A program made the position numbers and the translations under genes. From positions 1 through 33,900 of the IMG/VR virus record IMGVR_UViG_3300047481_002822: a stretch of 33,900 nt of DNA; one strand, written 5' to 3'. Below the pieces are notes generated by a model. The model was not told the DNA's origin, searched no databases, and saw only the letters and a list, made by a program, of their open reading frames with translations. The DNA is from a virus. Every line of letters begins with the position of its first letter. The first letter of the stretch is position 1. Below are positions 339 to 31,410 of the stretch, in pieces.

Positions 339-1148
339 CTACATGGGATCCGCACAGCAACGAAGTCCCTGTTGATAGAAGGCAAAAGATTCATTGTGGA
401 TCCTCGTGGAAGGTCGGCACCGAGTGCGTACCACGGACCAGTACCCACCTTTCAGGATAGACCGATAACCAGACTTCCGAGTGGAACTTGTCCATTCATC
501 CACGTTACCTGTCATGTCGTGTACCCCGAACGGGCTCACACACCTCTCCATCGTTCCGCTAGGAACTCCCTGCCACAACCGGAGAAGCTCCTCTCCGCGC
601 TTCGATGGATTCTGTAGCGCATCAACATCAGGTGCGATCCACTTGTGATCGATGTTGCAGGCCGTTGCATCCCGCTCGTAACCGTAGGGATACGGTAACC
701 CTTCCTCACCTTCGCAGGCGAATGTCCACTCCTCCTCGGTGCACAGGCGCTTTCCTTCATGTTCGCACGTTCTCTTCGCGGAGTACCAGTCGATGAACAC
801 CACGGGTGTGGCCCCCACCTCGTTCGGAAACTCATACGTATCCATGCAGAAGTCCATCTGGTGGCGTTTTCCTTTTAGGCCATCGGTAACCTTGAGCCAT
901 TTCTCCCGATTAAACCTGGCGCACCTGGCGGGGAACTGGGTGGAGATCCACTCGTCGCAGGTGGCATCCTGTAGCACCTCCACTATATCGGATCCTGCAG
1001 GAAGTGCCGCACCTCGTACACGCATGGTGCCACCCGGGCAACTCTTTGCCCGTAGAAACTCTAAATCATTTGGATCGGGATCCGTGAGCAGGAATGCCCC
1101 CGTGAGCAGGAAACCGACAGAACCCTTCGCAATCGTGGAAATCAACAT
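339..1148 (-). CDS. Formylglycine-generating-enzyme-like (SUMF1/FGE-sulfatase) protein, probably exported
   Basis: 269 aa from an ATG with a strong Shine-Dalgarno (GGAGGAGTGAATG). Residues 5-21 are hydrophobic and resemble a signal peptide or anchor. The body shows the FGE-sulfatase fold signature in order: a substrate-side segment with paired Cys, TPVVFIDWYSAKRTCEH, GKRLCTEEEWTFACEG, YPYG, DMTGNVDEWT, KGGYWS, and a C-terminal GLRCC. The family contains formylglycine-generating enzymes but also many non-catalytic or lectin-like relatives. The two-Cys copper site of true FGE cannot be confirmed here, so enzyme activity is uncertain. It is the last gene of the ligase operon (promoter at 3711..3739). 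Such proteins are rare in phages; a surface or lectin-like role is as likely as sulfatase maturation. Confidence 0.8.
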   Translation of the reverse strand: MLISTIAKGSVGFLLTGAFLLTDPDPNDLEFLRAKSCPGGTMRVRGAALPAGSDIVEVLQDATCDEWISTQFPARCARFNREKWLKVTDGLKGKRHQMDFCMDTYEFPNEVGATPVVFIDWYSAKRTCEHEGKRLCTEEEWTFACEGEEGLPYPYGYERDATACNIDHKWIAPDVDALQNPSKRGEELLRLWQGVPSGTMERCVSPFGVHDMTGNVDEWTSSTRKSGYRSILKGGYWSVVRTRCRPSTRIHNESFAFYQQGLRCCADPM

Positions 1149-1178: not shown

Positions 1179-1580
1179 TCATCGTGGCCGCCCGTTGGGG
1201 CGAAAGATGGGCTCGCACACCTTTCCGAAGAAGGCCAACTGCCATTCCCTCCAGGCGGAGAAGAGATCGGCCCCCGCTTCATCAACCACGGGAGCGAGCT
1301 GGTGGCCTGCATAGGAAGCTCGGTAGTGCTTGCCCGTTGAAATAAACTCCATTGGATCATCCGCGATCCACTCCCTAGTTTCGAGGCCCATCCTGTTGAA
1401 GTTGTAATCCACGATCACGAGGAGGCGTGTGATGAGTTCCCGCTTGTCGATCCGCCCCGCCATGAAATCCATTGCATCGTGGACGGAAACCACCTGATCC
1501 CCCGGCGCGAATTCGTAATCCGGGAAACCACCCGGTAGGTTTGGTTTCGGGTACTTCTCCTTCGGATCACTGCATCCCAT
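1179..1580 (-). CDS. Hypothetical phage protein, 133 aa
   Basis: Not recognised. The ATG at 1580 overlaps the last codons of the ligase C-terminal gene (stop at 1567-1569), so the two are translationally coupled. The product is acidic and aromatic, with HDAMDFMAGRIDKRELITRL near residues 34-53 and two or three Trp in its C-terminal half. Residues 2-4 (GCS) follow the start directly and do not form a lipobox. It lies between the ligase and the FGE-like gene in the same transcription unit. Confidence 0.75.
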   Translation of the reverse strand: MGCSDPKEKYPKPNLPGGFPDYEFAPGDQVVSVHDAMDFMAGRIDKRELITRLLVIVDYNFNRMGLETREWIADDPMEFISTGKHYRASYAGHQLAPVVDEAGADLFSAWREWQLAFFGKVCEPIFRPNGRPR

Positions 1581-2193
1581 CGAGGTACGCCTCCCCTGCC
1601 GCGATCACCTTGGGATCCACATCACGTGGATCGCGAACTCGACAGAACACGGGGAATCGCACCTTGCCCTCGCTCGTGAGGCCATCGGGGGTGAGGGGAT
1701 CGGGCTGGCCCTCCACCTCCACGATCTTGCCAATCCACGAATCGGGATCGATGGAGATCTCCGCACGGATCTTGTCGTTGTAACCACCACCCACCTTCGT
1801 CACCACACCGTTGGGCATCACCACGAGGAATCCACCCCACAGGCCTTCACGCTTGGAACCACGGTTGCCCTCATAGTGGCCCACGATCACCCCCTCATAG
1901 GTGCTCACTGGCTTCAACTTCATCACCGAATCGGAGCGCTTGAAGATGTAGGGAGAACCGAGCTTCTTCACCATGATGCCCTCGAAGCCACCCTCGATGG
2001 CCTTACCGTAGGCCTTGAAGAGGGTATCCTGATCCTTCGCGGTGATGCCGCCAACCTGAACCACATGGTCAGATCCGACCTGCTCCACCAATTCCTTGAC
2101 GAGTTCGAGGCGGTCCTCAAGGGGAGAATCGTTGGCCTGATCGCGCCAATCATCGAACACCATCGCATCGAACACATGAAAATTAATAGCCAT
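1567..2193 (-). CDS. ATP-dependent DNA ligase, C-terminal fragment of a split gene
   Basis: 208 aa from ATG 2193. It begins inside the adenylylation domain at FHVFDAMVFDDW (residues 5-16, motif IIIa), then has motif IV EGIMVKK (71-77) and motif V MKLKP (91-95), followed by an OB-fold region (about 96-208). It lacks the nucleotidyl lysine, which is on the separate upstream gene 2984..3703. Together the two parts make about 447 aa, close to the T4-type ligase length. An open TTG at 2211 would add six residues, but MAINFHVFD is the natural junction. Its first four or five codons are AT-rich like the inserted endonuclease; then the gene returns to GC-ending codons. Function needs association of the two chains, which is inferred. 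Confidence 0.9.
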   Translation of the reverse strand: MAINFHVFDAMVFDDWRDQANDSPLEDRLELVKELVEQVGSDHVVQVGGITAKDQDTLFKAYGKAIEGGFEGIMVKKLGSPYIFKRSDSVMKLKPVSTYEGVIVGHYEGNRGSKREGLWGGFLVVMPNGVVTKVGGGYNDKIRAEISIDPDSWIGKIVEVEGQPDPLTPDGLTSEGKVRFPVFCRVRDPRDVDPKVIAAGEAYLDGMQ

Positions 2194-2200
2194 AGCTTTC

Positions 2201-2926
2201 TTATACCTCAATATGCTTCCAGGTTACACCGGATACGATCTTAAAAATCGCATTGTATCCTTGCTGATATTTCTCGCAAAGAAGATTTACAGCATTTGTT
2301 TTATTGCAAGAATCACGTAAGATCGCGTATTCTTTTTTGATCTGGCGAACCGATTCATCGTTCAGAGTTGTTCGCCAGCAATTTTCGCCTCTTTGAGGCG
2401 AAATTCTACCAGTGTTAGAAATCGCAGCTTTCATGCGCATTTCTTTCTTTTTGGAATCAGGCATATTGCGAAGAGATTCTCTAATCTTTTCAGAAACTGC
2501 TTTTACGAAGTTCGGATCATTCATCCGAATCTTTGCTCGTTTTGAAATACCTTCAGCAATTTCCGGGTGATCTCGGTGTGTTCTCTTAAGCCCATCAGAA
2601 ATATTTTTCTTTTGTTCATCTGTGGGAACCCAGCCAGCTGCGCCATCACCCCCGATTGTGAAGTTGCATGCAACTTCTTTATCTGCAAGATCATCATGAT
2701 AAAACGTATGATGTTCTTTGATCATCAAAATTTCTTGATCAAAACATTCTTTTTCAGATGTTGATGAGAAAACAACTTCTCTTCTGAGGCCAAATGTTTT
2801 TCGAATGTGCTTGTGTTTCTGATTTCTTTCAGGATTTCTTGTGCGAAATTCATTGCCTTTACCAACGTAAAAGGCTCTTGGAATTTCCTCCGTGGTCCAG
2901 TCAACATAGGTGTGAAAAATTGTCAT
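2201..2926 (-). CDS. GIY-YIG homing endonuclease
   Basis: 241 aa from ATG 2926. The N-terminus carries a divergent GIY-YIG core: TYVDW (6-10) in place of GIY, FYVGKG (19-24) in place of YIG, Arg28, and a downstream Glu near residue 60. Residues about 115-175 hold a NUMOD3-like DNA-binding repeat pattern (SDGLKR, SKRAKI, SEKIRESLR), followed by a possible HTH. The gene is far more AT-rich than its neighbours, a sign of recent arrival. It ends 7 nt before the ligase C-part start. A Shine-Dalgarno AAAGGTGG lies too far upstream (about 17 nt) unless the hairpin at 2927..2940 forms. Confidence 0.85.
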   Translation of the reverse strand: MTIFHTYVDWTTEEIPRAFYVGKGNEFRTRNPERNQKHKHIRKTFGLRREVVFSSTSEKECFDQEILMIKEHHTFYHDDLADKEVACNFTIGGDGAAGWVPTDEQKKNISDGLKRTHRDHPEIAEGISKRAKIRMNDPNFVKAVSEKIRESLRNMPDSKKKEMRMKAAISNTGRISPQRGENCWRTTLNDESVRQIKKEYAILRDSCNKTNAVNLLCEKYQQGYNAIFKIVSGVTWKHIEV

Positions 2927-2940
2927 GCATATAAATATGC
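2927..2940 (-). promoter_or_regulatory. Hairpin between Shine-Dalgarno and ATG of the GIY-YIG endonuclease
   Basis: GCATAT-TT-ATATGC, a perfect 6-bp stem, directly abuts the ATG. The Shine-Dalgarno AAAGGTGG lies just upstream of the hairpin. Folding would bring it next to the start codon, as known for the split ribosome-binding site of T4 gene 25. Confidence 0.45.
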
Positions 2941-2983
2941 ACCACCTTTAGTTTTAGGCAGAGATTGGAACGTAGATATGAAA

Positions 2984-3703
2984 TTACTTCTTTTTAAGAA
3001 CACCTGATGCAGTGCTGTTCCACGTTCCATCCTCATCAAGAAGCTCTCCATCAAGTACAAAGTTGTCCCATGGAGATTTTTCAAGAGCTCGTTTAACTTC
3101 CTGAACACCAGGAGAATCAATGGGAGAACCGCTGCGCGTGAACATCGTGACCTCACCGTTGCGCTTGATCGCGATGCAACGGAGACCATCGAGCTTCGGT
3201 TCGACACGAACAGGATAGGCGACCGGTTCCGCGATCACGATGCCCTTGCCTGCCTCGTGGCGAGACTCGAGAGATTCCGCGAGCTGAACAGAGAACTTGG
3301 CGATTGCACCAGGCCAGGTCTTGTCGACCAGGGATTCCGAAGCACCTACACGAAGGTTGCGGAGGAGGATGCGGGTGCACCACTTGGCCTGACGTGCATC
3401 GAGGCCGGTGAAGAACGATTCTACGGCAGCTTTGGCAGCATTACCCGTGAGCTTACGGGTGGCGAGGTCGTTGTGGAGGAGATCGAGGAAGGACATGATC
3501 GCCCCGTCGTCCGAGACCGTCGCCGCGGGGAGCGGCTTTGGAGCCTTGAACTTGTTGACGTAGAAGTTGGTGTAGGGATCGCCGACTGCGACGAAGACCT
3601 GCTTCAGCAGCTTCTTGCTGGTGTTTCGTCGGAGGACTTCTTCCTTGAAGAGACGGGAGTTGTCAGATTCCAGGGATTCGAGGATGTCAATGACGGATTC
3701 CAT
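2984..3703 (-). CDS. ATP-dependent DNA ligase, N-terminal fragment of a split gene
   Basis: 239 aa from ATG 3703; GTG codons at 3709 and 3712 are alternatives, but the promoter places the transcript start close to this ATG. Residues 1-150 form the helical N-terminal domain of T4-type ligases (RILLRNLRVGA near 111-121). Motif I is EPKLDGLR with the adenylated lysine at K170; TRSG follows, and motif III is VLDGELLDEDG near 215-225. The chain ends at SGVLKKK where the endonuclease is inserted; the next codon is TAA. Codons from about 3130 down to 2984 end mostly in A/T, unlike the rest of the gene, suggesting co-conversion from a donor. Motifs IIIa-V are on the downstream gene 1567..2193. Confidence 0.9.
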   Translation of the reverse strand: MESVIDILESLESDNSRLFKEEVLRRNTSKKLLKQVFVAVGDPYTNFYVNKFKAPKPLPAATVSDDGAIMSFLDLLHNDLATRKLTGNAAKAAVESFFTGLDARQAKWCTRILLRNLRVGASESLVDKTWPGAIAKFSVQLAESLESRHEAGKGIVIAEPVAYPVRVEPKLDGLRCIAIKRNGEVTMFTRSGSPIDSPGVQEVKRALEKSPWDNFVLDGELLDEDGTWNSTASGVLKKK

Positions 3704-3739: not shown

Positions 3740-4468
3740 TTAGCCGATGCGTTTGATTGCACACAGGTACAGAGGATTCTCGGGGATCGTGACTGAATAC
3801 TTCTTGTATTTGGGAGACCGACCGGACCCGTCGTTGAGATCGAACTCGTACTTGCCAGGTTCCACTTTGATCTTAGAGAATCTCTCGCGATCAAACGTCC
3901 TCCCTTTGCCGCCGAGTCGCAATCCTCGGCGAAGCTCTGGCATCTGCCATCGGATGTGCTTGCTGATCTCGTCACACGCAGCGTCGTATTTTCTCTTCAG
4001 ATCTCTGGCGATTCTTTCGTCATTGTTGAGGATCTGAATCTGGATGGGATATCCCGCCATCTCGTGGATTTCGCCCATCATCGCCGCGAGCGCAGACAGA
4101 CATTGAGCGCGCTCGACCATTTCTGCGACGTTTGCGTTCCATCTGGAAGAAACTCCGGACGTCATCTTCAACTGATAGACCTTCCAGACATTTCCCATAG
4201 GATCTGTCTTTTCAGTTTCGTCCGTAGTCCACCGAAGCGTGACGTCTGCGACAGCCTGATAGTATCTGTCAGATACGGTGTTCTGCAGTCTGAGATCCAG
4301 TCTGATCTCCTTGTCGTCAGGATTGTCAGCGAGGAACAGCTTGCTGAGATCCTCGTACTTTGGTTTGTCGAGGAACTTACAGACTTCGTGCTGCAAGATC
4401 TTCTGGATCACTAAGCGTGAAATGATCTTCTTCGTGTCTTGACGACTATTTTCCGCTGTAGTACTCAT
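3740..4468 (-). CDS. Hypothetical protein, 242 aa
   Basis: Not recognised. ATG 4468 (MSTTAEN) is preceded by GGGAGATGAGAAGC; the frame is open further upstream but would overlap the Cys-rich peptide gene. The protein is soluble and charged, without signal peptide. Visible segments are a helical N-terminus (IISRLVIQKILQHEVCKFL), a central YQLKMTSGVSSRWNANVAEM, an alanine/methionine-rich helix (CLSALAAMMGEIHEMA), and a basic C-terminal part (RRGLRLGGKGRTFDRERF). No catalytic motif is evident. It ends immediately before the ligase promoter. Confidence 0.75.
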   Translation of the reverse strand: MSTTAENSRQDTKKIISRLVIQKILQHEVCKFLDKPKYEDLSKLFLADNPDDKEIRLDLRLQNTVSDRYYQAVADVTLRWTTDETEKTDPMGNVWKVYQLKMTSGVSSRWNANVAEMVERAQCLSALAAMMGEIHEMAGYPIQIQILNNDERIARDLKRKYDAACDEISKHIRWQMPELRRGLRLGGKGRTFDRERFSKIKVEPGKYEFDLNDGSGRSPKYKKYSVTIPENPLYLCAIKRIG

Positions 4469-6314: not shown

Positions 6315-7127
6315 CTACCTGAGCGGAACACCCTTTTTCAGGGCAGCTAATTCTTCTTCAGAAATCCTGTAAGACTCATCGACGACTTCATGTTCATCAA
6401 AAAGACCGAACCGCAATTTGAGGATTGCAGATTCTTTGTCAGACAAGTTCGATAGAACGCATCGGACAATGTCCATTAACTCTTTGGAAGATACGTTATA
6501 GAAAGGATCGTTTCTACCGTCAGTGTCCTCAAGTTTTTCTTCAAGCGTCCCGCTGTCTGGATCGGAAGAGATCGTTTGACTTAGAGAAACTACGTTATTT
6601 CCACTCGCGAGAGTGGCCTTCACTACAGTCTCAGAAGCATCTACGAGTGTCATTAGATCCTCTTGCGTAGGATCAGACCCAGTAAGTTCCTTGAACTCCT
6701 GAGATGCCTGTATTAGTTTTCTCTGAATTCCTGCGGCATGAGCAGGAAGACGAATCATCCTCTTCCGCTTCAGGACGTGTTGGCTAATCGCCTGCTTGAT
6801 CCACCACGTGGCATAGGTGGAGAATCGAAAACCCTTCTTGTAATCGAAGCGCTCGATCGCCTTGAGGAGACCGAGGTTGCCCTCCTGGATGAGGTCCTCC
6901 AGCGGAATGTTGTGACCTTTCTGCTTCTTTGCGATGGAGATGACGAGCCGCAGGTTACTCTCGATGAGCTTCTTGCGCGCCTTCTCAGCTGCGCTACCAC
7001 CAGACTCGTACTGCTGAAAAAGCGTGACTACGTCAGGATGCTTAAGCTGCGGGAAAGCCTTAAGGTCATTTAAATAAGCACTGATGGTGCCTCCCGTTTC
7101 AGTGGAGGACTTTTTGGAAAGGTTCAT
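6315..7127 (-). CDS. Sigma-70-family factor lacking region 4.2
   Basis: 270 aa from ATG 7127 (SD AAGGAAAAGGG); a TTG at 7172 is a weaker alternative. Region 1.2 is at about 12-45; region 2 contains DLIQEGNLGLLKAIERFDY (78-96) and the 2.3/2.4 helix FRFSTYATWWIKQAI (100-114); region 3.0 is RMIRLPAHA (123-131). Region 4.1 is recognisable (LSDKESAILKLRFGLFD, 228-244), but the protein then ends in SEEELAALKKGVPLR with no 4.2 helix-turn-helix. A short HTH protein two genes downstream could complement it, as gp33 complements gp55 in T4. It probably redirects RNA polymerase to phage promoters. Confidence 0.9.
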   Translation of the reverse strand: MNLSKKSSTETGGTISAYLNDLKAFPQLKHPDVVTLFQQYESGGSAAEKARKKLIESNLRLVISIAKKQKGHNIPLEDLIQEGNLGLLKAIERFDYKKGFRFSTYATWWIKQAISQHVLKRKRMIRLPAHAAGIQRKLIQASQEFKELTGSDPTQEDLMTLVDASETVVKATLASGNNVVSLSQTISSDPDSGTLEEKLEDTDGRNDPFYNVSSKELMDIVRCVLSNLSDKESAILKLRFGLFDEHEVVDESYRISEEELAALKKGVPLR

Positions 7128-7186
7128 TTGCCCTTTTCCTTTTTGCTTCTGTAAGTTATTTTCTTTGTTCAAATCGTTTATGTTTT

Positions 7187-7599: not shown

Positions 7600-7974
7600 T
7601 TATTGTGGTTGTAGGTTGTAAGGAATCCAAGCTACTTTTATTTTTCTAGATTTGAGGTCGGACACCATGTTGGTCGCTCCCAACGGATTGACGCTGTGCA
7701 CGATCACCTCACCGGGAAGGCGTTCATCGTGTAACTCACACACTCGAATCGCGGCGTGTTGTCCTGTGAAGAATTGCATGTCACCCCACCCGTCCAGGTA
7801 GGAATCACCAGGACCCAGGTCGTGATCGAGGTGGATCAGGTCCCACGGAGAACCACTCTCGAGTTCACGAACGAATTGGCTGTAAGTCTCCACGTGGACC
7901 ACCTCATGCCCTCCGTAGAACTCGGCGAACGCATCGTGTCTCACCTGCTCGTCATCGAGGATCAAGATTCGCAT
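7600..7974 (-). CDS. Cyclic-phosphate processing receiver-domain (cREC) protein
   Basis: 124 aa from ATG 7974, overlapping the deaminase stop by 13 nt. It is a receiver-like alpha/beta domain: MRILILDDEQ with the paired acidic residues D7/D8, LIHLDHDLGPGD in place of the phospho-acceptor strand, then HSVNPLGATNM and a final basic strand. This matches the family named cREC, proposed to process cyclic phosphates at RNA ends and often found in phages and RNA-repair settings. There is no output domain or kinase nearby. RtcB at 21105..22325 seals RNA with 2',3'-cyclic phosphate ends, which makes an RNA-repair role plausible but unproven. Confidence 0.75.
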   Translation of the reverse strand: MRILILDDEQVRHDAFAEFYGGHEVVHVETYSQFVRELESGSPWDLIHLDHDLGPGDSYLDGWGDMQFFTGQHAAIRVCELHDERLPGEVIVHSVNPLGATNMVSDLKSRKIKVAWIPYNLQPQ

Positions 7975-8324
7975 GCGATCACTCCCCATTCGTTGGGTCC
8001 GATGGTGTACACGATTCGAGAAACGCCTGCGATCCGCAACCTGCGTTCACATCCTCTGCACGGTTTCGCCATCGCCCAGGAACCATCCCTGCGTGCCACT
8101 CGTGCAACCCACACTGTGGAACCAGGGGTCAACTTTCGGGCGAGACGTGTCTCGGCGTGGTGATTGCGCTCAAAGGTGGCCTCAGGTGCTGGGATGTTCC
8201 TCGAGGAAACGAAGACTCCATCGGCGCGAAGGCCCACGGCACCGAGCAGAAAAGTTCGGGCATCCTTGCTTCCACTGATCGCAGTAGAAGCTGCCTCGGC
8301 TAACATCTTTTTGTCTGAAGCCAT
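7962..8324 (-). CDS. Cytidine/deoxycytidylate-deaminase-like zinc enzyme
   Basis: 120 aa. It has the deaminase signature H56-A57-E58 (NHHAETRLARKL) and P88-C89-x2-C92 (KPCRGCERRL), so the zinc ligands H, C, C and the proton-shuttle Glu are all present. The length is in the range of small CDA-fold enzymes. The substrate (dCMP, free cytidine, or a base in nucleic acid) cannot be told. First gene of the operon that leads through cREC to the sigma factor; its promoter is at 8337..8365 with a 12-nt leader gap. Confidence 0.8.
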   Translation of the reverse strand: MASDKKMLAEAASTAISGSKDARTFLLGAVGLRADGVFVSSRNIPAPEATFERNHHAETRLARKLTPGSTVWVARVARRDGSWAMAKPCRGCERRLRIAGVSRIVYTIGPNEWGVIACES

Positions 8325-9388: not shown

Positions 9389-9401
9389 GACTGTACCTAT
9401 G

Positions 9402-9474
9402 TGGAACCGACCGGGGACGATCCGGTAACCTCGAAATTAAAAGTTTCTTGCTCTACCAATTGAGCTACGGTTCC
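9402..9474 (-). tRNA. tRNA-Lys (anticodon UUU)
   Basis: Cloverleaf: acceptor GGAACCG/CGGTTCC, D stem GCTC/GAGC, anticodon loop CTTTTAA (UUU), T stem ACCGG/CCGGT. Discriminator A; CCA is not encoded. Oddities are an A-G mismatch at 27-43 and a T loop ATCGTCC in which T54 and A58 are swapped. Confidence 0.85.
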
Positions 9475-9547
9475 GTGGCGGTTACTCATCGACCTGATGT
9501 TCCTTGGTCGCTTTCACCTACAAGAAATTGTCACGAAGGAACGCGTG

Positions 9548-9590
9548 CTCAGAAATTCAGTTTTCTGAGTGTGCGGGTTTATATAAACCC
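9548..9590. repeat. Two tandem perfect hairpins between tRNA-Lys and tRNA-Ser
   Basis: CTCAGAAA-TTCAGT-TTTCTGAG (9548-9569, 8-bp stem) and the 16-nt palindrome GGGTTTATATAAACCC (9575-9590). They fill the spacer between the two tRNAs and may guide tRNA processing or stop transcription; neither is followed by a clear U-run. Confidence 0.45.
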
Positions 9591-9592
9591 TG

Positions 9593-9679
9593 CGGAGAAA
9601 GAGGGATTCGAACCCCCGGTACCCTTCCGAGTACGGCGAGTTTCAAGCTCGCTGCCTTAAACCTCTCGGCCATTTCTCC
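9593..9679 (-). tRNA. tRNA-Ser (anticodon UGA)
   Basis: Class II tRNA: acceptor GGAGAAA/TTTCTCC, anticodon stem GCGAG/CTCGC with loop CTTGAAA (UGA), long variable arm, T arm with GTTCGAATC. Discriminator G; CCA is not encoded. Confidence 0.93.
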
Positions 9680-9688
9680 AATTGCTAC

Positions 9689-10297
9689 TCATTCATACAG
9701 TTCAATGAACTTTTTACCGTATTTTTGTGTAACATAATCTAATATACTTTTCATATCATCTTCGTACAAGACTTTAACGTCAGGATTTGCTATCAATTTT
9801 GCTTCCCATTGTGGTGTCTTGAATCCTTTTATTTCTACAAGAATTCCATCTACTAAAAAATCTGGGATGTAGTTTCTTATTTCTCCTGACCACTCATATG
9901 TCCTTCGTTCCGAATTTCGTTCGATCTTGATAGAGTGATCAAGACAAAAGATAACATAAGCTAACTCCCAACTACTATCACAGAAGAATCCTTTATACCA
10001 ACCTTTTTTGCCTCTACCGGAACCCTCAACATATCCACCAAGTTTTTTCTTCTTGGCAAGATCCGATAATTTCTGTTTGAATTCTTCAGTATGTGTACAG
10101 CCCTTCAAACCCGTCAGTCCCTTGTTCCAGGACTTAAATCCTGTTTTTCCTTTGTTCCAAGGAATCGAACCTTTCTTTTGACCAGCTTTTTCTGAGTGAG
10201 GAAATTTCACTTTTTCAGGATTCATCTTGCAACACAACTGATGTGCTGCTAATGATCCTTTGTTATTGATTTCTCTATCACAAAATTTACAATTCAT
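9689..10297 (-). CDS. Homing endonuclease: zinc finger, NUMOD3, PD-(D/E)XK nuclease
   Basis: 202 aa. Modules in order: a CxxC...HxxxC zinc finger (MNCKFCDREINNKGSLAAHQ, 1-20), NUMOD3-type repeats (IPWNKGKTG and SWNKGLTG, then EEFKQKLSDLAKK), and a Vsr-like PD-(D/E)XK nuclease core (SSWELAY, then IPDFLVDGILVEIKGF near 143-158, with catalytic D and E-x-K). It is strongly AT-rich compared with its surroundings and sits between tRNA-Ser and tRNA-Asn, a favoured niche for free-standing endonucleases. Its start codon lies within an 8-bp stem (10293..10317). Confidence 0.85.
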   Translation of the reverse strand: MNCKFCDREINNKGSLAAHQLCCKMNPEKVKFPHSEKAGQKKGSIPWNKGKTGFKSWNKGLTGLKGCTHTEEFKQKLSDLAKKKKLGGYVEGSGRGKKGWYKGFFCDSSWELAYVIFCLDHSIKIERNSERRTYEWSGEIRNYIPDFLVDGILVEIKGFKTPQWEAKLIANPDVKVLYEDDMKSILDYVTQKYGKKFIELYE

Positions 10298-10317
10298 GAT
10301 CTTAACTATATCATGAA
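10293..10317 (-). promoter_or_regulatory. Hairpin sequestering the endonuclease start codon
   Basis: TTCATGAT-(9 nt)-ATCATGAA: a perfect 8-bp inverted repeat whose 3' arm contains the ATG at 10297. The loop holds the weak Shine-Dalgarno TTAAG. Similar hairpins silence early transcripts of T4 homing endonucleases such as I-TevI. Confidence 0.5.
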
Positions 10318-10346
10318 AATCAAGACTGTACCGTTAAACCAACAAA

Positions 10347-10589
10347 TTACTTCCTAAACTCTAACTTACCTTCTGCTTCTGCAATGATCATTGCTTCAAT
10401 ATATTCGAGGTGAGAATCAGCACCTGGAATCTCATGTCTCCTTCGAGTGATGTTCTCTTGAATCTTGAGGATCTCAGACTTTGACTGTGGGCATGTGACT
10501 TTCTCACCTGGTTTGAGATTGTCGAGAGCCCTACGAAGTTCAGGTAATGGTGTTTCGGCTTTTGTGTCTGCGTTGTTTACTCTTGCCAT
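10347..10589 (-). CDS. Hypothetical protein, 80 aa
   Basis: Not recognised. ATG 10589 (MARVNNADT), 13 nt after the 3' end of tRNA-Asn, with AGG upstream; a longer frame would run into the tRNA. It is a charged, helical protein (LPELRRALDNLKPGEKVTCP, then SHLEYIEAMIIAEAEGKLEF). The tight tRNA spacing implies co-transcription with the tRNA. Confidence 0.65.
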   Translation of the reverse strand: MARVNNADTKAETPLPELRRALDNLKPGEKVTCPQSKSEILKIQENITRRRHEIPGADSHLEYIEAMIIAEAEGKLEFRK

Positions 10590-10601
10590 GATTTGCCTGT
10601 G

Positions 10602-10673
10602 CTCCGACTCCTGGGATCGAACCAGGGACAATCGAGTTAACAGCTCGAGGTTCTGCCTCTGAACTAAGTCGGA
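10602..10673 (-). tRNA. tRNA-Asn (anticodon GUU)
   Basis: Acceptor TCCGACT/AGTCGGA, D stem GTTC/GAAC, anticodon stem TCGAG/CTCGA with loop CTGTTAA (GUU), T arm CCTGG-TTCGATC-CCAGG. Discriminator G; CCA is not encoded. Confidence 0.94.
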
Positions 10674-10929: not shown

Positions 10930-11089
10930 CTTCAGGAGTCTCTTCACCTTCAGCTGCAGCTTCTGCAGCTGCATCGGCAGGAGTCGCCCCCTTCGTCTTG
11001 AACCCGATGTACTCCTCGGGATCATCGGTACCAGTATCCGAAGACGTCTGTGCCTCGATCCACTTCGTAGGGATAGAATCCTTTGACAT
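10925..11089 (-). CDS. Possible small acidic protein, 54 aa
   Basis: ATG 11089 to TAA 10925. N-terminus MSKDSIPTKWIEAQTS, middle DDPEEYIGFKTKG, and an Ala/Glu-rich tail. It overlaps the preceding small gene (11022..11180) by 68 nt in another frame, so one of the two may be partly spurious, or a frameshift could join them. The codon use and the promoter overlapping its stop argue that the 3' end is real. Confidence 0.45.
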   Translation of the reverse strand: MSKDSIPTKWIEAQTSSDTGTDDPEEYIGFKTKGATPADAAAEAAAEGEETPEV

Positions 11090-11180
11090 CAGTAGGATCA
11101 GACGTGATACCGGGACCAGAGGGACTCTCAGCGATGACTCTTCGGATGAGCTTTCGGAGCTCAGAGATCCGAATCTTCAT
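11022..11180 (-). CDS. Small MKIR-type phage protein, 52 aa
   Basis: ATG 11180 overlaps the end of its paralogue 11161..11340. It begins MKIRISELRKLIRRVIAES, nearly the same as the upstream paralogue, then GFYPYEVDRGTDVFGYWYR at the end. The helical basic N-terminus is shared with 11161..11340, 22362..22832 and 22834..23118. The function is unknown; short N-terminal helices like this occur on many phage proteins and could be an interaction or scaffold-targeting tag. Confidence 0.6.
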   Translation of the reverse strand: MKIRISELRKLIRRVIAESPSGPGITSDPTDVKGFYPYEVDRGTDVFGYWYR

Positions 11181-11340
11181 CGTCGTCCTCTTCGACTCCC
11201 AGGCCACCATGTTCCATCGAGTGGACCTCGTCATCGTCGACGGGTTCTGCAGAACCCGGATACCAACGCCCAGGCACCCATCCCTGTTCAAGGATTGTCT
11301 CGCGGATTATTCTTCTTAATTCAGATAGGCGAATCTTCAT
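11161..11340 (-). CDS. Small MKIR-type phage protein with acidic tail, 59 aa
   Basis: ATG 11340 to TGA 11161. The N-terminus MKIRLSELRRIIRETILEQG is the shared basic helix; then GWVPGRWYPGSAEPV, and an acidic tail (EEDDDEDSDL). It overlaps its paralogue 11022..11180 by 20 nt, so the pair looks like a tandem duplication that diverged. It starts 5 nt after the virion gene 11346..11744. A TAGGAT box lies 7 nt before the ATG, without a matching -35. Confidence 0.65.
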   Translation of the reverse strand: MKIRLSELRRIIRETILEQGWVPGRWYPGSAEPVDDDEVHSMEHGGLGVEEDDDEDSDL

Positions 11341-13842: not shown

Positions 13843-13871
13843 ATTCTACACGGTTTCTGGTCCACTTGGCA
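13843..13871 (-). promoter_or_regulatory. Promoter of the 13.6-13.8 kb pair (-35 TGCCAA, -10 TAGAAT)
   Basis: TGCCAA (13866-13871), 17-nt spacer, TAGAAT (13843-13848). It overlaps the end of gene 13846..14064. The gap is 11 nt to ATG 13831 and 26 nt to ATG 13816. Confidence 0.55.
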
Positions 13872-14064
13872 CCGCCTGCACCACGGAGTAGATGTGCAGT
13901 TCGTTGAGCAACTTCTCGATCTTGCCCTCACGATTGAGGAACACGGAATAGGTGCACGGCCCTGCGTAGATCCGCCCAGGCAGGAGACAGGGATCGATGC
14001 TTACCATCAGTTCGTGCGCCCCGGTCCTCCGTTGCGTTACGAGCACAAGATCTCCGGGGCGCAT
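13846..14064 (-). CDS. KOW/SH3-like small protein, 72 aa
   Basis: ATG 14064. It opens with the family signature MRPGDLVLVTQ, then PGRIYAGPCTYSVFLNREGKIEKLLNELH. GAGG ends 1 nt before the ATG, too close for a good Shine-Dalgarno, while a -10-like GATACT sits 8 nt upstream. Its second half resembles the end of the neighbour 14077..14460 (VFVDREGRI against VFLNREGKI), so the two are probably paralogues. Confidence 0.65.
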   Translation of the reverse strand: MRPGDLVLVTQRRTGAHELMVSIDPCLLPGRIYAGPCTYSVFLNREGKIEKLLNELHIYSVVQAVPSGPETV

Positions 14065-14072
14065 ACCTCATA

Positions 14073-14101
14073 AGTATCACAACTCTTCCCGTGGGATCAC
14101 A
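14073..14101 (-). promoter_or_regulatory. Candidate promoter (-35 TGTGAT, -10 GATACT)
   Basis: TGTGAT (14096-14101), 17-nt spacer, GATACT (14073-14078), 8 nt to ATG 14064. Same spacing as the main family but weaker boxes; it lies in the tail of gene 14077..14460. Confidence 0.4.
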
Positions 14102-14460
14102 CGAAAACCCCAGGTATGGTAGCCATCCCGGATCCGCCCCTCTCGATCCACGAACACACCGTGCTTCGGCATGCCCTGCAGTTCACCGAGGTACAACACC
14201 ACCTCACCCGGCCGGAAGTGGGAGAACACCGTGTGCTCATCCGGGTTGGGGTAGTACACGGTGAGGGTATTGGGCGGAACCTTCACAGTGAAGTGGGTGG
14301 GCCTCAACTGCCCGCTGGGATCTGGTACCTCGAGGTTGAAGGCATCCCGTAGGTGTGGGTGTTGCACAGCCTCGATCTCGGCGATATCGGGCCACGAGGC
14401 CACCGCCTCCTCCGCGTACGGGCCCTTGTAGAGGTTCGGAAACTTCGATTCGAAGTTCAC
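14077..14460 (-). CDS. KOW/SH3-like protein with N-terminal extension, 127 aa
   Basis: GTG 14460 overlaps the previous TGA as GTGA; a longer frame upstream lies wholly inside that neighbour. Residues 1-60 are a distinct domain (FESKFPNLYKGPYAEEAV). The C-terminal part has the family signature FRPGEVVLYLGELQ and GVFVDREGRIRDGYHTWGF. It is the last of four coupled genes starting at 15437. Function unknown. Confidence 0.65.
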   Translation of the reverse strand: MNFESKFPNLYKGPYAEEAVASWPDIAEIEAVQHPHLRDAFNLEVPDPSGQLRPTHFTVKVPPNTLTVYYPNPDEHTVFSHFRPGEVVLYLGELQGMPKHGVFVDREGRIRDGYHTWGFRVIPREEL

Positions 14461-14696
14461 TTCTTCTTCCCCATGATCGCGGTTGCGGGGTAGGCCTGTG
14501 CCTCTGTAACCTCCATCTCGATCACCTCCCAGAAGGGCGAGATGGGAGCCTTGTTGTTCTCCGCCCACATGGTGAGGTGGGCCTTCAATTGGCCCAGCTT
14601 CATCCACACCTTGCCACCATCCTCATCCCACGTGGGATTGTTTCCACCGGAGGAGTACTTGCCCGTGCTCATATCACGCAGCTTGTAGAACTTCAT
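14457..14696 (-). CDS. Hypothetical phage protein, 79 aa
   Basis: ATG 14696 (MKFYKLRD) overlaps the previous stop as TGATG; two GTG codons upstream are less likely. It shows FYKLRDMSTGKYSSGG, WDEDGGKVWMKLGQLKAHL and WEVIEMEVTEAQ, a compact alpha/beta pattern that recurs in phage genomes without known function. It ends in a basic tail (GKKK). Confidence 0.65.
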   Translation of the reverse strand: MKFYKLRDMSTGKYSSGGNNPTWDEDGGKVWMKLGQLKAHLTMWAENNKAPISPFWEVIEMEVTEAQAYPATAIMGKKK

Positions 14697-15010
14697 CACC
14701 ACTTCCTCATCTTCTCGAGAGAATCATCCAACAGTGCCCGGATCCGATCGTAATCGTGCGGGTTCAACATCACGGTATCGTAGTGCCCGTACCGCTCGGT
14801 GCGCTTGAACACGTACTTCACTGCGAGCCACACCCGCTTCCACCAGGGAAGCCAGTGGTTGAGGGGAACCGAGATGGAGATGTGGCCCATCTCCTCATCC
14901 ACCTCGAACCGCACGTTGTGATCGAAGGTGGAGCAGGTGCACTCGAACCGGTGGAAGTTGTCACTCCGGATGTATGAACCCGAGATTCCTTCTGTGCTAG
15001 AATTTAACAA
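14696..15010 (-). CDS. Conserved-type phage protein, 104 aa
   Basis: No ATG fits; TTG 15010 with GGAG exactly 6 nt upstream is the best start and overlaps the previous stop by 14 nt. A CTCSTFDHNVRFEVDEE segment leads to WKRVWLAVKYVFKRTERYGHYD and then LNPHDYDRIRALL. This order (Cys pair, beta strands, Trp-rich VKYVF, RYGH) is a recurring small phage protein pattern. Function unknown. The TTG start suggests low translation. Confidence 0.6.
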   Translation of the reverse strand: MLNSSTEGISGSYIRSDNFHRFECTCSTFDHNVRFEVDEEMGHISISVPLNHWLPWWKRVWLAVKYVFKRTERYGHYDTVMLNPHDYDRIRALLDDSLEKMRKW

Positions 15011-15437
15011 GTTGATCTCCAAAGTAATCCTCCAATCTCTCCAGCTCAATCTCCAACTCAGGACACCGCTCCCACTTGGAACGCTCACGGGACCAGAACT
15101 GGATCACCCGTAAATCGATGCAGTTCATCGTGTGCCCCGCAAGGCAGCAACCTGCATTGGGCGGATCTCCATAGTGCAGCTCCTTCAACCGTGAGGGAGC
15201 GGAGAGGGGCTCCAAACGATCGCCGTTCCAGTGACAGGAATACTCCCACCAGTTCATCTCCACATCAAACTCGTGGCAACAACTCTGGCACGCGATGCGA
15301 AGGAGGACAACCTCCCGGGCATAGGGGTTGGCGCTCTCAGTGGGTGCGAACTCGCACCATCGAGGAACACCGTGGGCATCCCACCACAGGGGTGGTTCCG
15401 AAATGCGTGAGAGGATATCTTTGTAATCGGGTACCAT
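14997..15437 (-). CDS. Conserved-type phage protein with Cys cluster, 146 aa
   Basis: ATG 15437 with SD GGAGGTGCA directly upstream. It starts DYKDILSRISEPPLWWDAHG, followed by GVPRWCEFAPT and RIACQSCCHEFDVEMNWW, a likely zinc site. A second Cys/His group (AGCCLAGHTMNC) precedes a charged helical end. Similar proteins occur in many large phages without an assigned role. First of four overlapping genes (15437 down to 14077). Confidence 0.7.
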   Translation of the reverse strand: MVPDYKDILSRISEPPLWWDAHGVPRWCEFAPTESANPYAREVVLLRIACQSCCHEFDVEMNWWEYSCHWNGDRLEPLSAPSRLKELHYGDPPNAGCCLAGHTMNCIDLRVIQFWSRERSKWERCPELEIELERLEDYFGDQLVKF

Positions 15438-15446
15438 TGCACCTCC

Positions 15447-15475
15447 ATCCTAATACAGGATTCATTCAGGTTACA
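15447..15475 (-). promoter_or_regulatory. Promoter (-35 TGTAAC, -10 TAGGAT)
   Basis: TGTAAC (15470-15475), 17-nt spacer, TAGGAT (15447-15452), 9 nt to ATG 15437. The -35 box overlaps the last codons of gene 15466..15738. Confidence 0.6.
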
Positions 15476-15738
15476 TCAGGTTGCACTTCTTCTAATTCAT
15501 CGGAGAAACACACACCCATTCCATTGGGAGTAAGCACCTTGATCCACTGCGCGTGCTTCATGATGTTGGTGGATCGGATCGCAACCACGATCCCAACCTG
15601 GTGTGGCCCGAAGGGAACATCCTTGTAATCCTTCTCGAGGATCTCGCTCCAAGAAGATTCCTCATCATCCCCCACGAGCATGTCGGGAGGATCGAGGTAT
15701 ACCCTCACGCTAGATGTTACAAGTGATCCTACTTTCAC
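15466..15738 (-). CDS. KOW/SH3-like small protein, 90 aa
   Basis: GTG 15738 with AGAGGTAA 8 nt upstream. Family signature: MKVGSLVTSS at the start, GPHQVGIVVAIRS in the middle, WIKVLTPNGMGVCFSDELEEV near the end. An acidic insert (VGDDEESSWSEIL) separates the first two strands. It follows the related gene 15766..16029 and is probably a duplicate of it. Confidence 0.7.
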   Translation of the reverse strand: MKVGSLVTSSVRVYLDPPDMLVGDDEESSWSEILEKDYKDVPFGPHQVGIVVAIRSTNIMKHAQWIKVLTPNGMGVCFSDELEEVQPDVT

Positions 15739-15761
15739 GTGTGATCTTACCTCTAAGGGTA

Positions 15762-15790
15762 AGTATCACTCTACGGGATCAACGTTCCAA
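15762..15790 (-). promoter_or_regulatory. Weak candidate promoter (-35 TTGGAA, -10 GATACT)
   Basis: TTGGAA (15785-15790), 17-nt spacer, GATACT (15762-15767); overlaps the stop region of 15766..16029 and leads to GTG 15738. The -35 box departs from the TGCAAA family. Confidence 0.3.
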
Positions 15791-16029
15791 TCACCGATCC
15801 AGCCCCAGTGCCCGTTGGGCACGAGGAGCCTCAACCATCCATCCTCTCGCGTTTCCAGAACGATGCCGGTAGAACCACGAGCCCAGGGTGGGCCGAATTC
15901 TCCAATGATCTCACCCACCGCCACTGTTCGAGCGGGATCACGTGGAAAGAGGTAAACTGATTCGTTGTCAAAACTCGGCCGTACGAGTTCTCCGGGATAG
16001 AATCGCTTGTTGTTTCTTCTTGGGGCCAC
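15766..16029 (-). CDS. KOW/SH3-like small protein, 87 aa
   Basis: GTG 16029 is the first usable start; an ATG at 16037 is in another frame. It has the fullest family signature: FYPGELVRPSF, then GSTGIVLETREDGWLRLLVPNGHWGWIGDWNV, cut here to its main points G-I-V-L and GWxxxxNV. Such Gly-turn, hydrophobic-strand, Gly-Trp ends are typical of SH3/KOW barrels. The Shine-Dalgarno is poor (GAGAGG about 16 nt away), so the start is uncertain. Confidence 0.65.
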   Translation of the reverse strand: MAPRRNNKRFYPGELVRPSFDNESVYLFPRDPARTVAVGEIIGEFGPPWARGSTGIVLETREDGWLRLLVPNGHWGWIGDWNVDPVE

Positions 16030-16053
16030 AGGTACATGTAACTATCCTCTCAT

Positions 16054-20545: not shown

Positions 20546-20576
20546 TTTATTCCTTCCTGTTGGCGTTTGTTATCGG

Positions 20577-20661
20577 CGGAACGTGCAGGATTCGAACCTG
20601 CGGTGGTGCTACCCACGGCTGTTTAGTAAACAGCTGCCATTAACCGCTCGGCCAACGTTCC
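20577..20661 (-). tRNA. tRNA-Ser with anticodon ACU
   Basis: Class II tRNA: acceptor GGAACGT/ACGTTCC, anticodon stem GCTGT/ACAGC with loop TTACTAA, variable stem GTGG/CCAC, T arm with GTTCGAATC. The loop gives anticodon ACU, reading AGU, where bacterial tRNA-Ser normally has GCU. Discriminator G; CCA not encoded. If A34 were changed to inosine it could also read AGC and AGA. Confidence 0.85.
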
Positions 20662-20670
20662 TGAGATGTG

Positions 20671-20753
20671 TGGAGGGTGAAGGATTTGCACCTACGAAGG
20701 CATAAGCCGCGAAATTTACAATTTCGTCCCGTTGGCTACTTGGGTAACCCTCC
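20671..20753 (-). tRNA. tRNA-Tyr (anticodon GUA)
   Basis: Class II: acceptor GGAGGGT/ACCCTCC, anticodon stem CGAAA/TTTCG with loop TTGTAAA (GUA), variable stem GGC/GCC, T arm GTAGG-TGCAAAT-CCTTC with one non-canonical pair. Discriminator A; CCA not encoded. Confidence 0.88.
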
Positions 20754-21104: not shown

Positions 21105-22325
21105 TCAACCTTTCACGCAGATGAACTGCTTTAGAGTGTGAACAACATCTACCAGATCGGCCTGCGCGGCCATCACAACATCGATATCCTTGTAGGCACC
21201 AGGCGTTTCATCGATCACTTCCTTATCCTTCCTGCACTCCACCCCCTCCGTGGCAGCACGGTGATCCGCCAGGGTGAACGTTTTGGAAGCCTCAGCCCTG
21301 CTCATTTTTCTTCCTGCTCCGTGGGAACAAGAGCAGAAAGATTCCTTGTTTCCCTTGCCTCTCACGATGTAGGATCGCGCCCCCATGGAACCCGGGATGA
21401 TCCCGAGTTCCCCTGCCTTCGCAGAAACTGCACCCTTGCGGGTTACCCAGTAGTTCTTACCGAAGTGATTCTCCCTGGAGATGTAGTTGTGGTGGCACTC
21501 GATGGCCTCATCCTCGAGGCGGAAATCGGCCCTAATGGTTTTCACCATCGCTCGAACCACATCATCCATCATGATGGATCGGTTCTGAAGGGCGTAATCC
21601 TGCGCCCAGGCAACGGCCTCCACGTAATCGGCGAAGTACTGTGATCCCTCCGGTAGGTAGGCGAGATCGTGGTTGGGTAGGGAGATGTACCATCGTTCCA
21701 TCTCCTCCTTCGCTTTCTCGATGAAGTAGGATCCGATCCGGTTACCCACACCCCGCGAACCAGAGTGAAGCATGATCCACACGCGATCCTCCTCATCGAG
21801 GCACAGTTCGATGAAGTGGTTGCCCGAGCCCAGCGTACCCAGGTGTTCGGCCGTTGCACCGTTGCGCCCATGGAGTTTCGAGTGTTTCCCAACGATGGCC
21901 TCCCAACCTGGGGCCAACCAATCGCTCCACACCCTCCCAACGCGTTCTGGCACGTTCTTCCATCGGCCTCGATCGTTCGGGCCACCGTTATCCGTTCGCC
22001 CGTGGGGCACGGCCCGCTCGATGGCGGCCCGCACATCGGAGAGATTTCCCGGGAGATCGTGGGAGGTAAGCGAGGTTCTCACTGCATTCATACCACATCC
22101 GATATCCACCCCCACCGCGGCCGGAACGATGGCTCCGATCGTGGGAATCACGGATCCAACCGTTGCCCCCGTTCCCACATGAACATCCGGCATCACGGCC
22201 ACATGCGGGCCGATGAAGGGAAGGGCGGCCACACCCTCCAACTGATCGATCGCGCCCCTTTCAACGGGAACTCCATCCACCCACATCTTGATTGGGCGGG
22301 AACCGGGCTTCGAGATAACTTCCAT
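21105..22325 (-). CDS. rtcB: RtcB-type RNA ligase
   Basis: 406 aa, near the 408 aa of E. coli RtcB. All key sites are visible: PDVHVGTGATVGS (46-58), DIGCGMN with Cys77 for metal binding (74-80), GTLGSGNHF (163-171), SGSRGVGNRIG (188-198), CHHNYI (277-282), and CSCSHGAGR with the guanylated His335 (331-339). It joins RNA 2',3'-cyclic phosphate or 3'-phosphate ends to 5'-OH ends using GTP and Mn. In a phage it most likely repairs tRNAs cut by host anticodon nucleases; the five phage tRNAs and the cREC protein support this. Leaderless promoter at 22332..22360. Confidence 0.97.
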   Translation of the reverse strand: MEVISKPGSRPIKMWVDGVPVERGAIDQLEGVAALPFIGPHVAVMPDVHVGTGATVGSVIPTIGAIVPAAVGVDIGCGMNAVRTSLTSHDLPGNLSDVRAAIERAVPHGRTDNGGPNDRGRWKNVPERVGRVWSDWLAPGWEAIVGKHSKLHGRNGATAEHLGTLGSGNHFIELCLDEEDRVWIMLHSGSRGVGNRIGSYFIEKAKEEMERWYISLPNHDLAYLPEGSQYFADYVEAVAWAQDYALQNRSIMMDDVVRAMVKTIRADFRLEDEAIECHHNYISRENHFGKNYWVTRKGAVSAKAGELGIIPGSMGARSYIVRGKGNKESFCSCSHGAGRKMSRAEASKTFTLADHRAATEGVECRKDKEVIDETPGAYKDIDVVMAAQADLVDVVHTLKQFICVKG

Positions 22326-22361: not shown

Positions 22362-22832
22362 TCAACCGCTCGAAGTTGCCTTGCCGAGATTTGCATTGAT
22401 CTGTGCCATCAGCTTCTTCTTCGTGCCCTCGGGATCCGAATCCACGGTTTTTGCTGCGGCCGAGAAGGCTGAACCGATCAACCCGAGATCCTTGTTCATC
22501 TGCCCGAGCGAACCGAGGCCACCGGAGATGAATCCGTTGATGATCGCGTGAGCGATTCCCACAGCATCTGTGGGTTCCTCGGATGCTGGCAGTGCGGTTT
22601 GCATCTTGTTCACATCGGAGGAGATCCTCTCCGCCAAACCGGAGAACAGCTTGGCGATCGCAGCGAAACCTGCGGATGCCTTCACGTTGCTGCCAGATTC
22701 CTCACCGGAACCGATCGCGGATTTGATCGCATCGAGGAGCCCCTCGCGGAGCATCTCCTGGCGGAGTGCCTCCCTCTGCTCTCTGAGCACTTCCTCACGG
22801 ATGATCCTACGCAAGTGCGATTCGGCGTTCAT
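22362..22832 (-). CDS. MKIR-type helical phage protein, 156 aa
   Basis: ATG 22832 (MNAESHLRRIIREEVLREQ) with SD AAAGG; an ATG at 22850 lies inside the previous gene. The start is the shared basic helix of the MKIR-type family; it continues with a helical, Ala/Gly-rich body (AIAKLFSGLAERI; GIAHAIINGFISGGLGSLG). The end is Lys/Ala-rich. It may be a scaffold- or membrane-associated protein; no family is recognised. Confidence 0.6.
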   Translation of the reverse strand: MNAESHLRRIIREEVLREQREALRQEMLREGLLDAIKSAIGSGEESGSNVKASAGFAAIAKLFSGLAERISSDVNKMQTALPASEEPTDAVGIAHAIINGFISGGLGSLGQMNKDLGLIGSAFSAAAKTVDSDPEGTKKKLMAQINANLGKATSSG

Positions 22833-22833
22833 A

Positions 22834-23118
22834 TCAACCTTTCTTTTCATGACCTTGAACTTTCATGAGAGCTTTCAACACTGCACCTTTGTCACCAACG
22901 CTGGAAGCATCTATTATGGCCTCGAGGAGGCCTGCAAGCTCGCGAGCATTATCTATCTTCTTGATCGATTGCATCACTCCCTTGCTCTTGGCCATCATCT
23001 CGAGCACCCGCTTTGAATCCACTGTGGCCTCGTGCTTCGAGTGGAGGTTCTTCAACTGCTCCGTTTCGAGCTCTTCCCGAATAATTGATCGGAGTTGTTC
23101 CTCTGTTAGCTTCACCAT
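22834..23118 (-). CDS. MKIR-type helical phage protein, 94 aa
   Basis: ATG 23118 (MVKLTEEQLRSIIREELE) opens with the same basic helix as its neighbour. The rest is helical: SKRVLEMMAKSKGVMQSIKK, then LAGLLEAIIDASS. A -10-like TATAAT lies 7 nt before the ATG, but no -35 of the main family is found. Its stop sits 1 nt before the downstream start (TGATATG). Confidence 0.6.
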   Translation of the reverse strand: MVKLTEEQLRSIIREELETEQLKNLHSKHEATVDSKRVLEMMAKSKGVMQSIKKIDNARELAGLLEAIIDASSVGDKGAVLKALMKVQGHEKKG

Positions 23119-23263
23119 GCGGGTAATTATACCCTCGAAAACCGTAGGGGCAGTTTCTACACCCATTTTTACAACATTTTCCTCGGGCCAAAAGAAACGA
23201 GGAGGAGAACACAAGGTTCCCCTCCCCATCCCACTCGTAATCTACTCCTTCAACCAGCTCCAC
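22949..23263 (-). CDS. DUF5522-type protein with out-of-frame extension
   Basis: GTG 23263 to a stop at 22949. Residues 1-42 form the conserved module (VDYEWDGEGNLVFSSSFLL, then ARGKCCKNGCRNCPYGF) of the small DUF5522 family, whose members usually stop soon after CPYGF. Here the frame stays open for about 60 more residues, overlapping gene 22834..23118 by 170 nt in another frame. Either a stop codon was lost, or a frameshift is present, or the overlap is real. The Shine-Dalgarno is poor. Confidence 0.5.
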   Translation of the reverse strand: MELVEGVDYEWDGEGNLVFSSSFLLARGKCCKNGCRNCPYGFRGYNYPHGEANRGTTPINYSGRARNGAVEEPPLEARGHSGFKAGARDDGQEQGSDAIDQEDR

Positions 23264-30565: not shown

Positions 30566-30736
30566 CTATGGCTCGACCTTTGTGAGCAGAGAAGTCTTCA
30601 CAATTTTTACTTCGTCACCGAAGAGGACACGTGCGTAAGAGCCTTCGTACTGAACATAGGCAGTTAAGCCCAGCACAGTTCCTGGTGTCGAATTGTCTTT
30701 TGTGGTGACGAAGTCACCTTGCTTTAGGTGCATCAT
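30566..30736 (-). CDS. KOW/SH3-like small protein, 56 aa
   Basis: Start chosen at ATG 30736 (MMHLKQGDF); ATG 30772 is an alternative with more overlap. Family pattern: LKQGDFVTTKD, TPGTVLGLTAYVQY and ARVLFGDEVKIV, closing SLLTKVEP. It overlaps the related gene 30714..31046 and ends 2 nt from the metzincin stop. Unknown role. Confidence 0.6.
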   Translation of the reverse strand: MMHLKQGDFVTTKDNSTPGTVLGLTAYVQYEGSYARVLFGDEVKIVKTSLLTKVEP

Positions 30737-31046
30737 TGAAATCACTGCAGAGGTCAAAATCGTCATTGACATTCTCTAAAAGTCCGGCGTGAACGATTCC
30801 TACGAGACCTCGTTCGAAGAGGATCTGCACGTAGTGGAACAGGATGTTGTCCTGTCTGTCTGTGAAGTTGTTGAGGACGATTCCCATCTCTCCTCCCGTG
30901 ACAGTGAATGCAACGTTGGCGAATGAGAAATTGCTTGAAGCGGCGTATGCATTCACCTTGTCGTTGGCTCGACGTACCGTCACCAAGTCACCCGTCTGTA
31001 GGCGGGGTATGACACGCAGGGAGGGTCGAGGCGGAATGCTGTGCAC
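30714..31046 (-). CDS. KOW/SH3-like protein, 110 aa
   Basis: GTG 31046. Basic N-terminus (HSIPPRPSLRVIPR), then the family pattern: LQTGDLVTVRR, GGEMGIVLNNF, ILFERGLVGIVHAGLLENV. A polar C-terminal tail follows (DDFDLCSDFND). The start is uncertain: no Shine-Dalgarno, and the upstream TATGAT abuts the GTG. Confidence 0.6.
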   Translation of the reverse strand: MHSIPPRPSLRVIPRLQTGDLVTVRRANDKVNAYAASSNFSFANVAFTVTGGEMGIVLNNFTDRQDNILFHYVQILFERGLVGIVHAGLLENVNDDFDLCSDFNDAPKAR

Positions 31047-31088
31047 ATCATAGATATTCCGCTCTCAAACTTTGACGATTGAACCGGA

Positions 31089-31373: not shown

Positions 31374-31380
31374 GTTGTAA

Positions 31381-31410
31381 ATAGTACCACTTTTGAGAGT
31401 GCACTTTACA
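31381..31410 (-). promoter_or_regulatory. Promoter (-35 TGTAAA, -10 TACTAT)
   Basis: TGTAAA (31405-31410), 18-nt spacer, TACTAT (31381-31386), 7 nt to ATG 31373. The -35 box overlaps the TAA stop of 31406..31639. Confidence 0.62.

Follow-up and report, generated by a model that had tools for sequence, protein, structure and literature searches.

A phage ATP-dependent DNA ligase encoded in two pieces on either side of a homing-endonuclease-like gene

Introduction

How does a phage DNA ligase come to be encoded by two separate reading frames with an endonuclease-like gene between them, and could the two products still act as one enzyme? This question was raised by the DNA of an uncultured phage, available as the IMG/VR record IMGVR_UViG_3300047481_002822, which was analyzed whole (33.9 kb, listed as linear and as a probable fragment; hereafter, the window). 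Homing endonucleases are known to have left phage genes in pieces, the affected enzymes being ribonucleotide reductase, topoisomerase, and DNA polymerase (PMC2988022). A preliminary description of the window had proposed a ligase split by a GIY-YIG endonuclease, whose pieces would have to assemble.

Organization of the ligase locus

All features of the locus lie on the minus strand. The N half of the ligase (3703-2984, 239 aa) comprises the alpha-helical N domain, motif I with the lysine K170 in EPK(170)LDG, and motif III with DGE at 218, and it ends in SGVLKKK-TAA. The C half (2193-1567, 208 aa) starts at its own ATG at 2193 and carries motifs IIIa (FHVFD), IV (EGIMVK), and V (KLKP) followed by the OB domain (Pfam PF14743, OB_2, 4.9e-8); Pfam A_M also matches this half, and the N half gave matches to DNA_ligase_A_N/A_M near the cut-off. 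The PHROG profile of ATP-dependent DNA ligases, phrog_114, was matched by the N half over positions 88-316 (1.1e-47) and by the C half over 327-504 (3e-44). The two halves thus take up the profile consecutively and once, as expected of a single ligase rather than a duplicated one. The motif set of ATP-dependent ligases (I, III, IIIa, IV, V, and the OB domain) is complete, although distributed over two ORFs, and the assignment of motifs to each half in the preliminary description was borne out. The two-piece ligase would be expected to seal nicks via lysyl-AMP.

Between the halves lies a homing-endonuclease-like gene of low GC content (2926-2201, 241 aa), with a GIY-YIG-type N part and a helical C-terminal tail. 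It is preceded by a non-coding leader of 57 nt (2983-2927) and followed by 7 nt (2200-2194), so that non-coding DNA between the halves adds up to 64 nt, in agreement with the earlier estimate.

Intact and split relatives

Alignment to intact relatives had been proposed beforehand as a check on the split. Searches with the two halves retrieved about 50 related IMG/VR contigs in which the ligase runs uninterrupted through the split point, and the split in the window was thereby confirmed. The closest intact ligases were 88-95% identical to the C half of the window, the nearest being those of contigs L018 and L023 (94-95%). L018 reads ...SASVVMSHKTAKDDSGMILNVFD... where the window has ...STASGVLKKK-stop / start-MAINFHVFD..., and the cut was placed by alignment between motifs III and IIIa, inside the catalytic domain as originally described. 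No GenBank phage matched the window at the nucleotide level, and GenBank ligases were only about 30% identical. Phages phiM9, ORM_20, and VPMS1 were considered as candidates for an endonuclease beside a ligase and were rejected, their ligases being whole.

Two further contigs presented the split at the identical codon. In L070 (IMGVR_UViG_3300042691_053859), which is AT-rich, the junction reads ...STISNAMTKK-stop, followed by an endonuclease 62% identical to that of the window and then by MGMNYHIFD. In L015 (IMGVR_UViG_3300009161_005892) the endonuclease is absent; its junction reads ...STASGVLKKKI-stop, with 53 nt between KKK and the ATG, and continues with MAIKFHIFD. In the alignment, all three split ligases lacked an identical set of six residues from the loop that separates motif III from motif IIIa. 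They also share an insertion of two residues a short way upstream of the break and retain all catalytic motifs. An intact frame in about 50 relatives together with an identical split in L015 and L070 indicated that the split is not due to chance.

Two other contigs presented breaks in this region. In L051 (about 3990-4110), this ligase loop has lost one base, which produces a TAG with an in-frame ATG for the C part directly behind it, and the junction reads KKGKDD-stop, MIFHVFD; this reflects an assembly error, or else the ligase loop was split a second time, independently. The 42 kb contig L013 starts inside the ligase C half (1-450, 97% identical to the window), and the assembly break at its start may conceal another split copy.

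Sequence exchange at the junctions

In sliding comparisons the window ligase was about 80-99% identical to its nearest relatives almost throughout. From about 3120 to the break, and over the first 18 nt or so of the C half, identity to close intact relatives dropped to about 50%, and in this same tract identity to L015 climbed to 74-81%. Inspection at the base level placed the crossovers near 3120 and 2176, with identity to L018 resuming at GTGTTCGATGCG. The upstream tract (3120-2987) thus takes in some 134 nt at the end of the N half, where identity to L015 is about 78% and GC drops from 59 to 42%, and the downstream tract (2193-2176) about 18 nt including the new start codon. At the protein level, a stretch of 50 columns at the break was common to the three split ligases and was found in no intact one. 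Outside this shared stretch the ligases of the window and L070 were only 21-50% identical over much of the gene.

Co-conversion is the signature left in flanking DNA by endonuclease-driven gene conversion (PMC2988022). As judged from the identity and composition profiles, the donor tracts flanking the insert in the window are a co-conversion scar of homing: the endonuclease would have carried flanking ligase sequence along, and the ends of both pieces would accordingly be donor sequence. The insertion in the window appears to be recent, its flanks being 80-99% identical to intact relatives.

The endonuclease-like gene

The window endonuclease did not match any Pfam or PHROG family at the cut-off, including the Pfam GIY-YIG models. 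Its L070 homologue matched phrog_314, annotated as 'homing endonuclease' (7.8e-10). Six residues (Y7, Y20, G22, R28, E65, and N88) were invariant in the endonuclease alignment (A7) and correspond to GIY-YIG catalytic residues by position only, the first motif reading YVD and not GIY. A distant relative presented NUMOD3 repeats and a weak match to the LEM-3 GIY-YIG model (0.0016, below its cut-off), and annotated phage homing endonucleases were about 30% identical to the window protein by tblastn. A single-sequence scan of IMG/VR and the genome contigs searched returned no endonuclease relatives. The AlphaFold model of the protein (pLDDT 52) was too poor for use, and no credible match was obtained among solved structures. 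On the basis of the phrog_314 match of the 62% identical L070 homologue and of the conserved Y/YVG/R/E/N positions, we assign the window protein to the GIY-YIG type with moderate confidence. The earlier proposal of a GIY-YIG endonuclease as the cause of the split thus holds up as to the cause and less firmly as to the family: that it is a homing endonuclease is favoured by the L070 homologue and by the co-conversion tract, and the family assignment stands without a Pfam GIY-YIG match to the window protein itself. The protein presumably cuts DNA.

A second endonuclease-like gene occurs in the window at 9689-10297 on the minus strand (phrog_15427 endonuclease, 1.5e-9), between tRNA-Ser and tRNA-Asn, a placement reminiscent of SegB among the T4 tRNA genes.

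Conserved leader, relic, and expression signals

The leaders of the window and L070 aligned with a score that was reached by 0 of 5000 shuffles, TTCCAAT (2970-2964) and AAAGGTGGT (2949-2941) being kept in both, and a scan of IMG/VR with the leader pattern gave L070 as the sole match. The last endonuclease codons, ACC TGG AAG CAT ATT GAG G, are likewise kept between these two phages. The 53-nt gap of L015 contains the leader heptamer TTCCAAT and the 24-mer ACTTGAAATCACGTTAAGGTATAA, which agrees with the last endonuclease codons at 18 of 24 positions; none of the other positions scanned across eight related loci, 167,288 in all, agreed as well (next best, 16), and five of the six differences are transitions. 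When the ribosome-binding part was left aside the match was weaker (11/16, equalled by 63 of 167,416 positions). That the L015 gap is a relic of the endonuclease leader and last codons is therefore well supported, though not proven. Such a relic would mean that insertion of the endonuclease preceded its loss and that the split, once made, was retained; the split would thus have outlived its cause.

Each ligase piece has its own start and its own stop. In the window, a GAGGT within the last endonuclease codons (2209-2205) is the likely ribosome-binding site of the C half; its 11 nt distance to the ATG is longer than ideal. GAGG(T/A) or AAGGT was present 8-11 nt before the C-half ATG in the window, L070, and L015, and this conserved combination of ATG and ribosome-binding site suggests independent initiation of the C half. 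RNA folds of the leader and junctions were no more stable than shuffled sequences, and promoter and terminator scans remained at chance level.

Structure, selection, and ligase content

The AlphaFold model of the intact L018 ligase (pLDDT 87.5) matched the Prochlorococcus Lig (6rar_I, Z 25.9) and T4 gp30 (6dt1, Z 24.1). The break maps between residues 235 and 242 of this model, in or beside its least confident loop (228-237), which is flanked by the strand with motif III (213-221) and the strand with motif IIIa (243-252). According to the model, a break at this loop should let both sides of the fold still pair, which makes non-covalent assembly the most likely mode.

Compared with L018, the nearest intact ligase, dN/dS was about 0.1 in both halves, similar to pairs of intact ligases, with much of the divergence behind this value predating the recent insertion in the window phage. 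In each of three relatives of 298, 187, and 205 kb a single ATP ligase was found, and NAD ligases were absent. With a single ligase per large relative, loss of the phage's only ligase would be a cost unless a host ligase took its place; the window being a 33.9 kb fragment, another ligase elsewhere in this phage is possible.

Other genes in the window and its relatives

Downstream of the split ligase, the window encodes a formylglycine-generating-enzyme-like protein (FGE-sulfatase, 339-1148, minus strand; Pfam 1.1e-21) with a signal-like start, and a similar-looking protein lies downstream of the split ligase of L070 (2891-3658). A phage sigma-70 factor with regions 2 and 3 (6315-7172, minus strand) is also found near the ligase in L015 and L016. 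An RtcB RNA ligase (21105-22325; phrog_1075, 2e-148), a cREC cyclic-phosphate receiver domain protein (7600-7989; Pfam 1.5e-10), and five tRNA genes (at 9401-10673 and 20575-20753) possibly form a tRNA repair set.

Four ORFs of the window start with a similar motif, e.g. MKIRLSELRRIIRE (11022-11340, 22362-22850, 22834-23229), and similar ORF starts occur in L072 (MRISIRDLRLLIEQ) and L070 (MLRTYIRELIKE); the common motif is perhaps a targeting or packaging tag. About nine small ORFs on the minus strand (13849-16041 and 30569-32976) have a GDLV/GSLV-like start, with a later GW motif in several, and look like a paralogous family.

Discussion

We consider it likely that homing made a ligase gene in pieces whose two halves assemble. 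A homing endonuclease gene would have invaded the ligase gene where it encodes a flexible surface loop separating motif III from motif IIIa. Double-strand-break repair would then have brought in the endonuclease along with flanking ligase sequence of the donor on either side. The donor tract would have brought the stop of the first piece along with the loss of the six loop residues, and the new ATG of the second piece along with a ribosome-binding site inside the last endonuclease codons, so that a single homing event could make a ready-made two-piece ligase. Polypeptides of 239 and 208 aa would then be translated separately from one mRNA and would associate without a covalent link, Lys170 of the first meeting motifs IV and V of the second. 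By analogy with NrdA of phage Aeh1, such assembly is the most likely mode. The presence of the split in two other phages, one of them apparently since rid of the mobile gene, suggests that the two-piece ligase still works.

The split ligase might instead be dead, the phage using a host ligase or another phage ligase and the halves having yet to decay. The insertion in the window is recent enough for decay not to show, and the fragment covers part of the genome. We nevertheless regard this as unlikely, given that the ligases of L015 and L070 differ widely from that of the window and from each other with motifs and frames intact, that the L015 split persists even without an endonuclease, and that the large relatives have a single ligase.

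The remaining alternatives would restore a full-length ligase. Recoding, by a ribosomal frameshift or by a translational bypass like that of T4 gene 60, could fuse the halves at least in L015. There the gap contains no stop in the -1 frame, which is that of the C half, and ATC, the codon just ahead of the N-half stop, is also codon three of the C half. An open stretch of 90 nt in another frame is, however, fairly often expected by chance, and the window and L070 would need about 790 nt including a whole gene to be skipped, with mismatched take-off and landing codons. Signals for bypass or frameshifting were weak and limited to L015, with none matching those of gene 60 in the window or L070, and the conserved ATG and ribosome-binding site point to independent initiation; recoding is thus very improbable. 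Even less probable is a self-splicing group I intron with the endonuclease ORF inside, whose excision would yield the full ligase. Group I introns often house homing endonucleases, and the window and L070 resemble each other at the nucleotide level in the leader and at the 3' end. The insert nevertheless gave no Rfam match to group I or II introns, whether at gathering cut-offs or with the limit relaxed to E=10. Non-coding DNA amounts to only 64 nt, the 53-nt gap of L015 is too short for a ribozyme, and the split genes lack the six residues that joined exons should encode, in line with the earlier judgement against an intron. Rejoining of the proteins by split inteins is hardly credible at all. 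In 'fractured genes' split inteins lie at the break with a free-standing endonuclease between them, outwardly the same gene order; work on that arrangement is cited in PMC10448857. The alignment contradicts this reading, because ligase residues run right up to the end of the N half and from the very start of the C half, with none to spare for intein parts, and no Pfam or PHROG intein model matched the window proteins.

The preferred reading, a homing-made ligase in two assembling pieces, has parallels in other phages. In Aeromonas phage Aeh1, nrdA is split by mobE and the pieces form an active enzyme (Friedrich et al. 2007, as cited in PMC2988022). The parallel in gene layout drawn in the preliminary description is apt, since in both cases a homing endonuclease gene lies within an essential gene of nucleotide or DNA metabolism, leaving two coding regions and no intron. 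Endonuclease family and target both differ: the Aeh1 endonuclease is of the HNH type, and the target here is a DNA ligase, in which the cut separates motif III from motif IIIa within the nucleotidyltransferase domain. Activity of the assembled pieces was demonstrated for Aeh1, whereas for the window ligase it is predicted. Gene 43 (DNA polymerase) of Aeromonas phages 25 and 44RR is likewise split, with an endonuclease in one and a short untranslated gap in the other (PMC2988022). The order of events was left open there by the review, whereas the L015 gap, with its sequence resembling the last endonuclease codons, points to the endonuclease first and its loss later. T4 gene 39/60, a topoisomerase split by mobA (PMC2988022), is another phage DNA enzyme split by endonuclease insertion. 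The T4-type ligases (T4 gp30 and Prochlorococcus Lig) share domains and motifs with the window ligase, but are single chains. We found no report in the open-access literature searched of a DNA ligase as such a split target, or of a nucleotidyltransferase cut between active-site motifs by homing. Three points are new here: a ligase as the target, a split that recurs at one and the same codon, with donor flanks, in three divergent phages, and a stage that lacks the endonuclease but keeps a likely relic of it.

Together with its ligase flanks, the endonuclease may constitute a portable split cassette, delivering in one step ends adapted for a two-protein ligase (loop removed, stop, start codon, and ribosome-binding site), after which the two-piece ligase could persist even when the endonuclease is deleted; we consider the chances of this about even. 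If true, this would be a naturally split DNA ligase with an active site shared between two chains. The natural break point also suggests a division site for two-part ligase designs. The phages compared form a before, during, and after series, namely an intact ligase, a split with the endonuclease, and a split after endonuclease loss, which allows a test of whether the split is tolerated or even favoured by itself.
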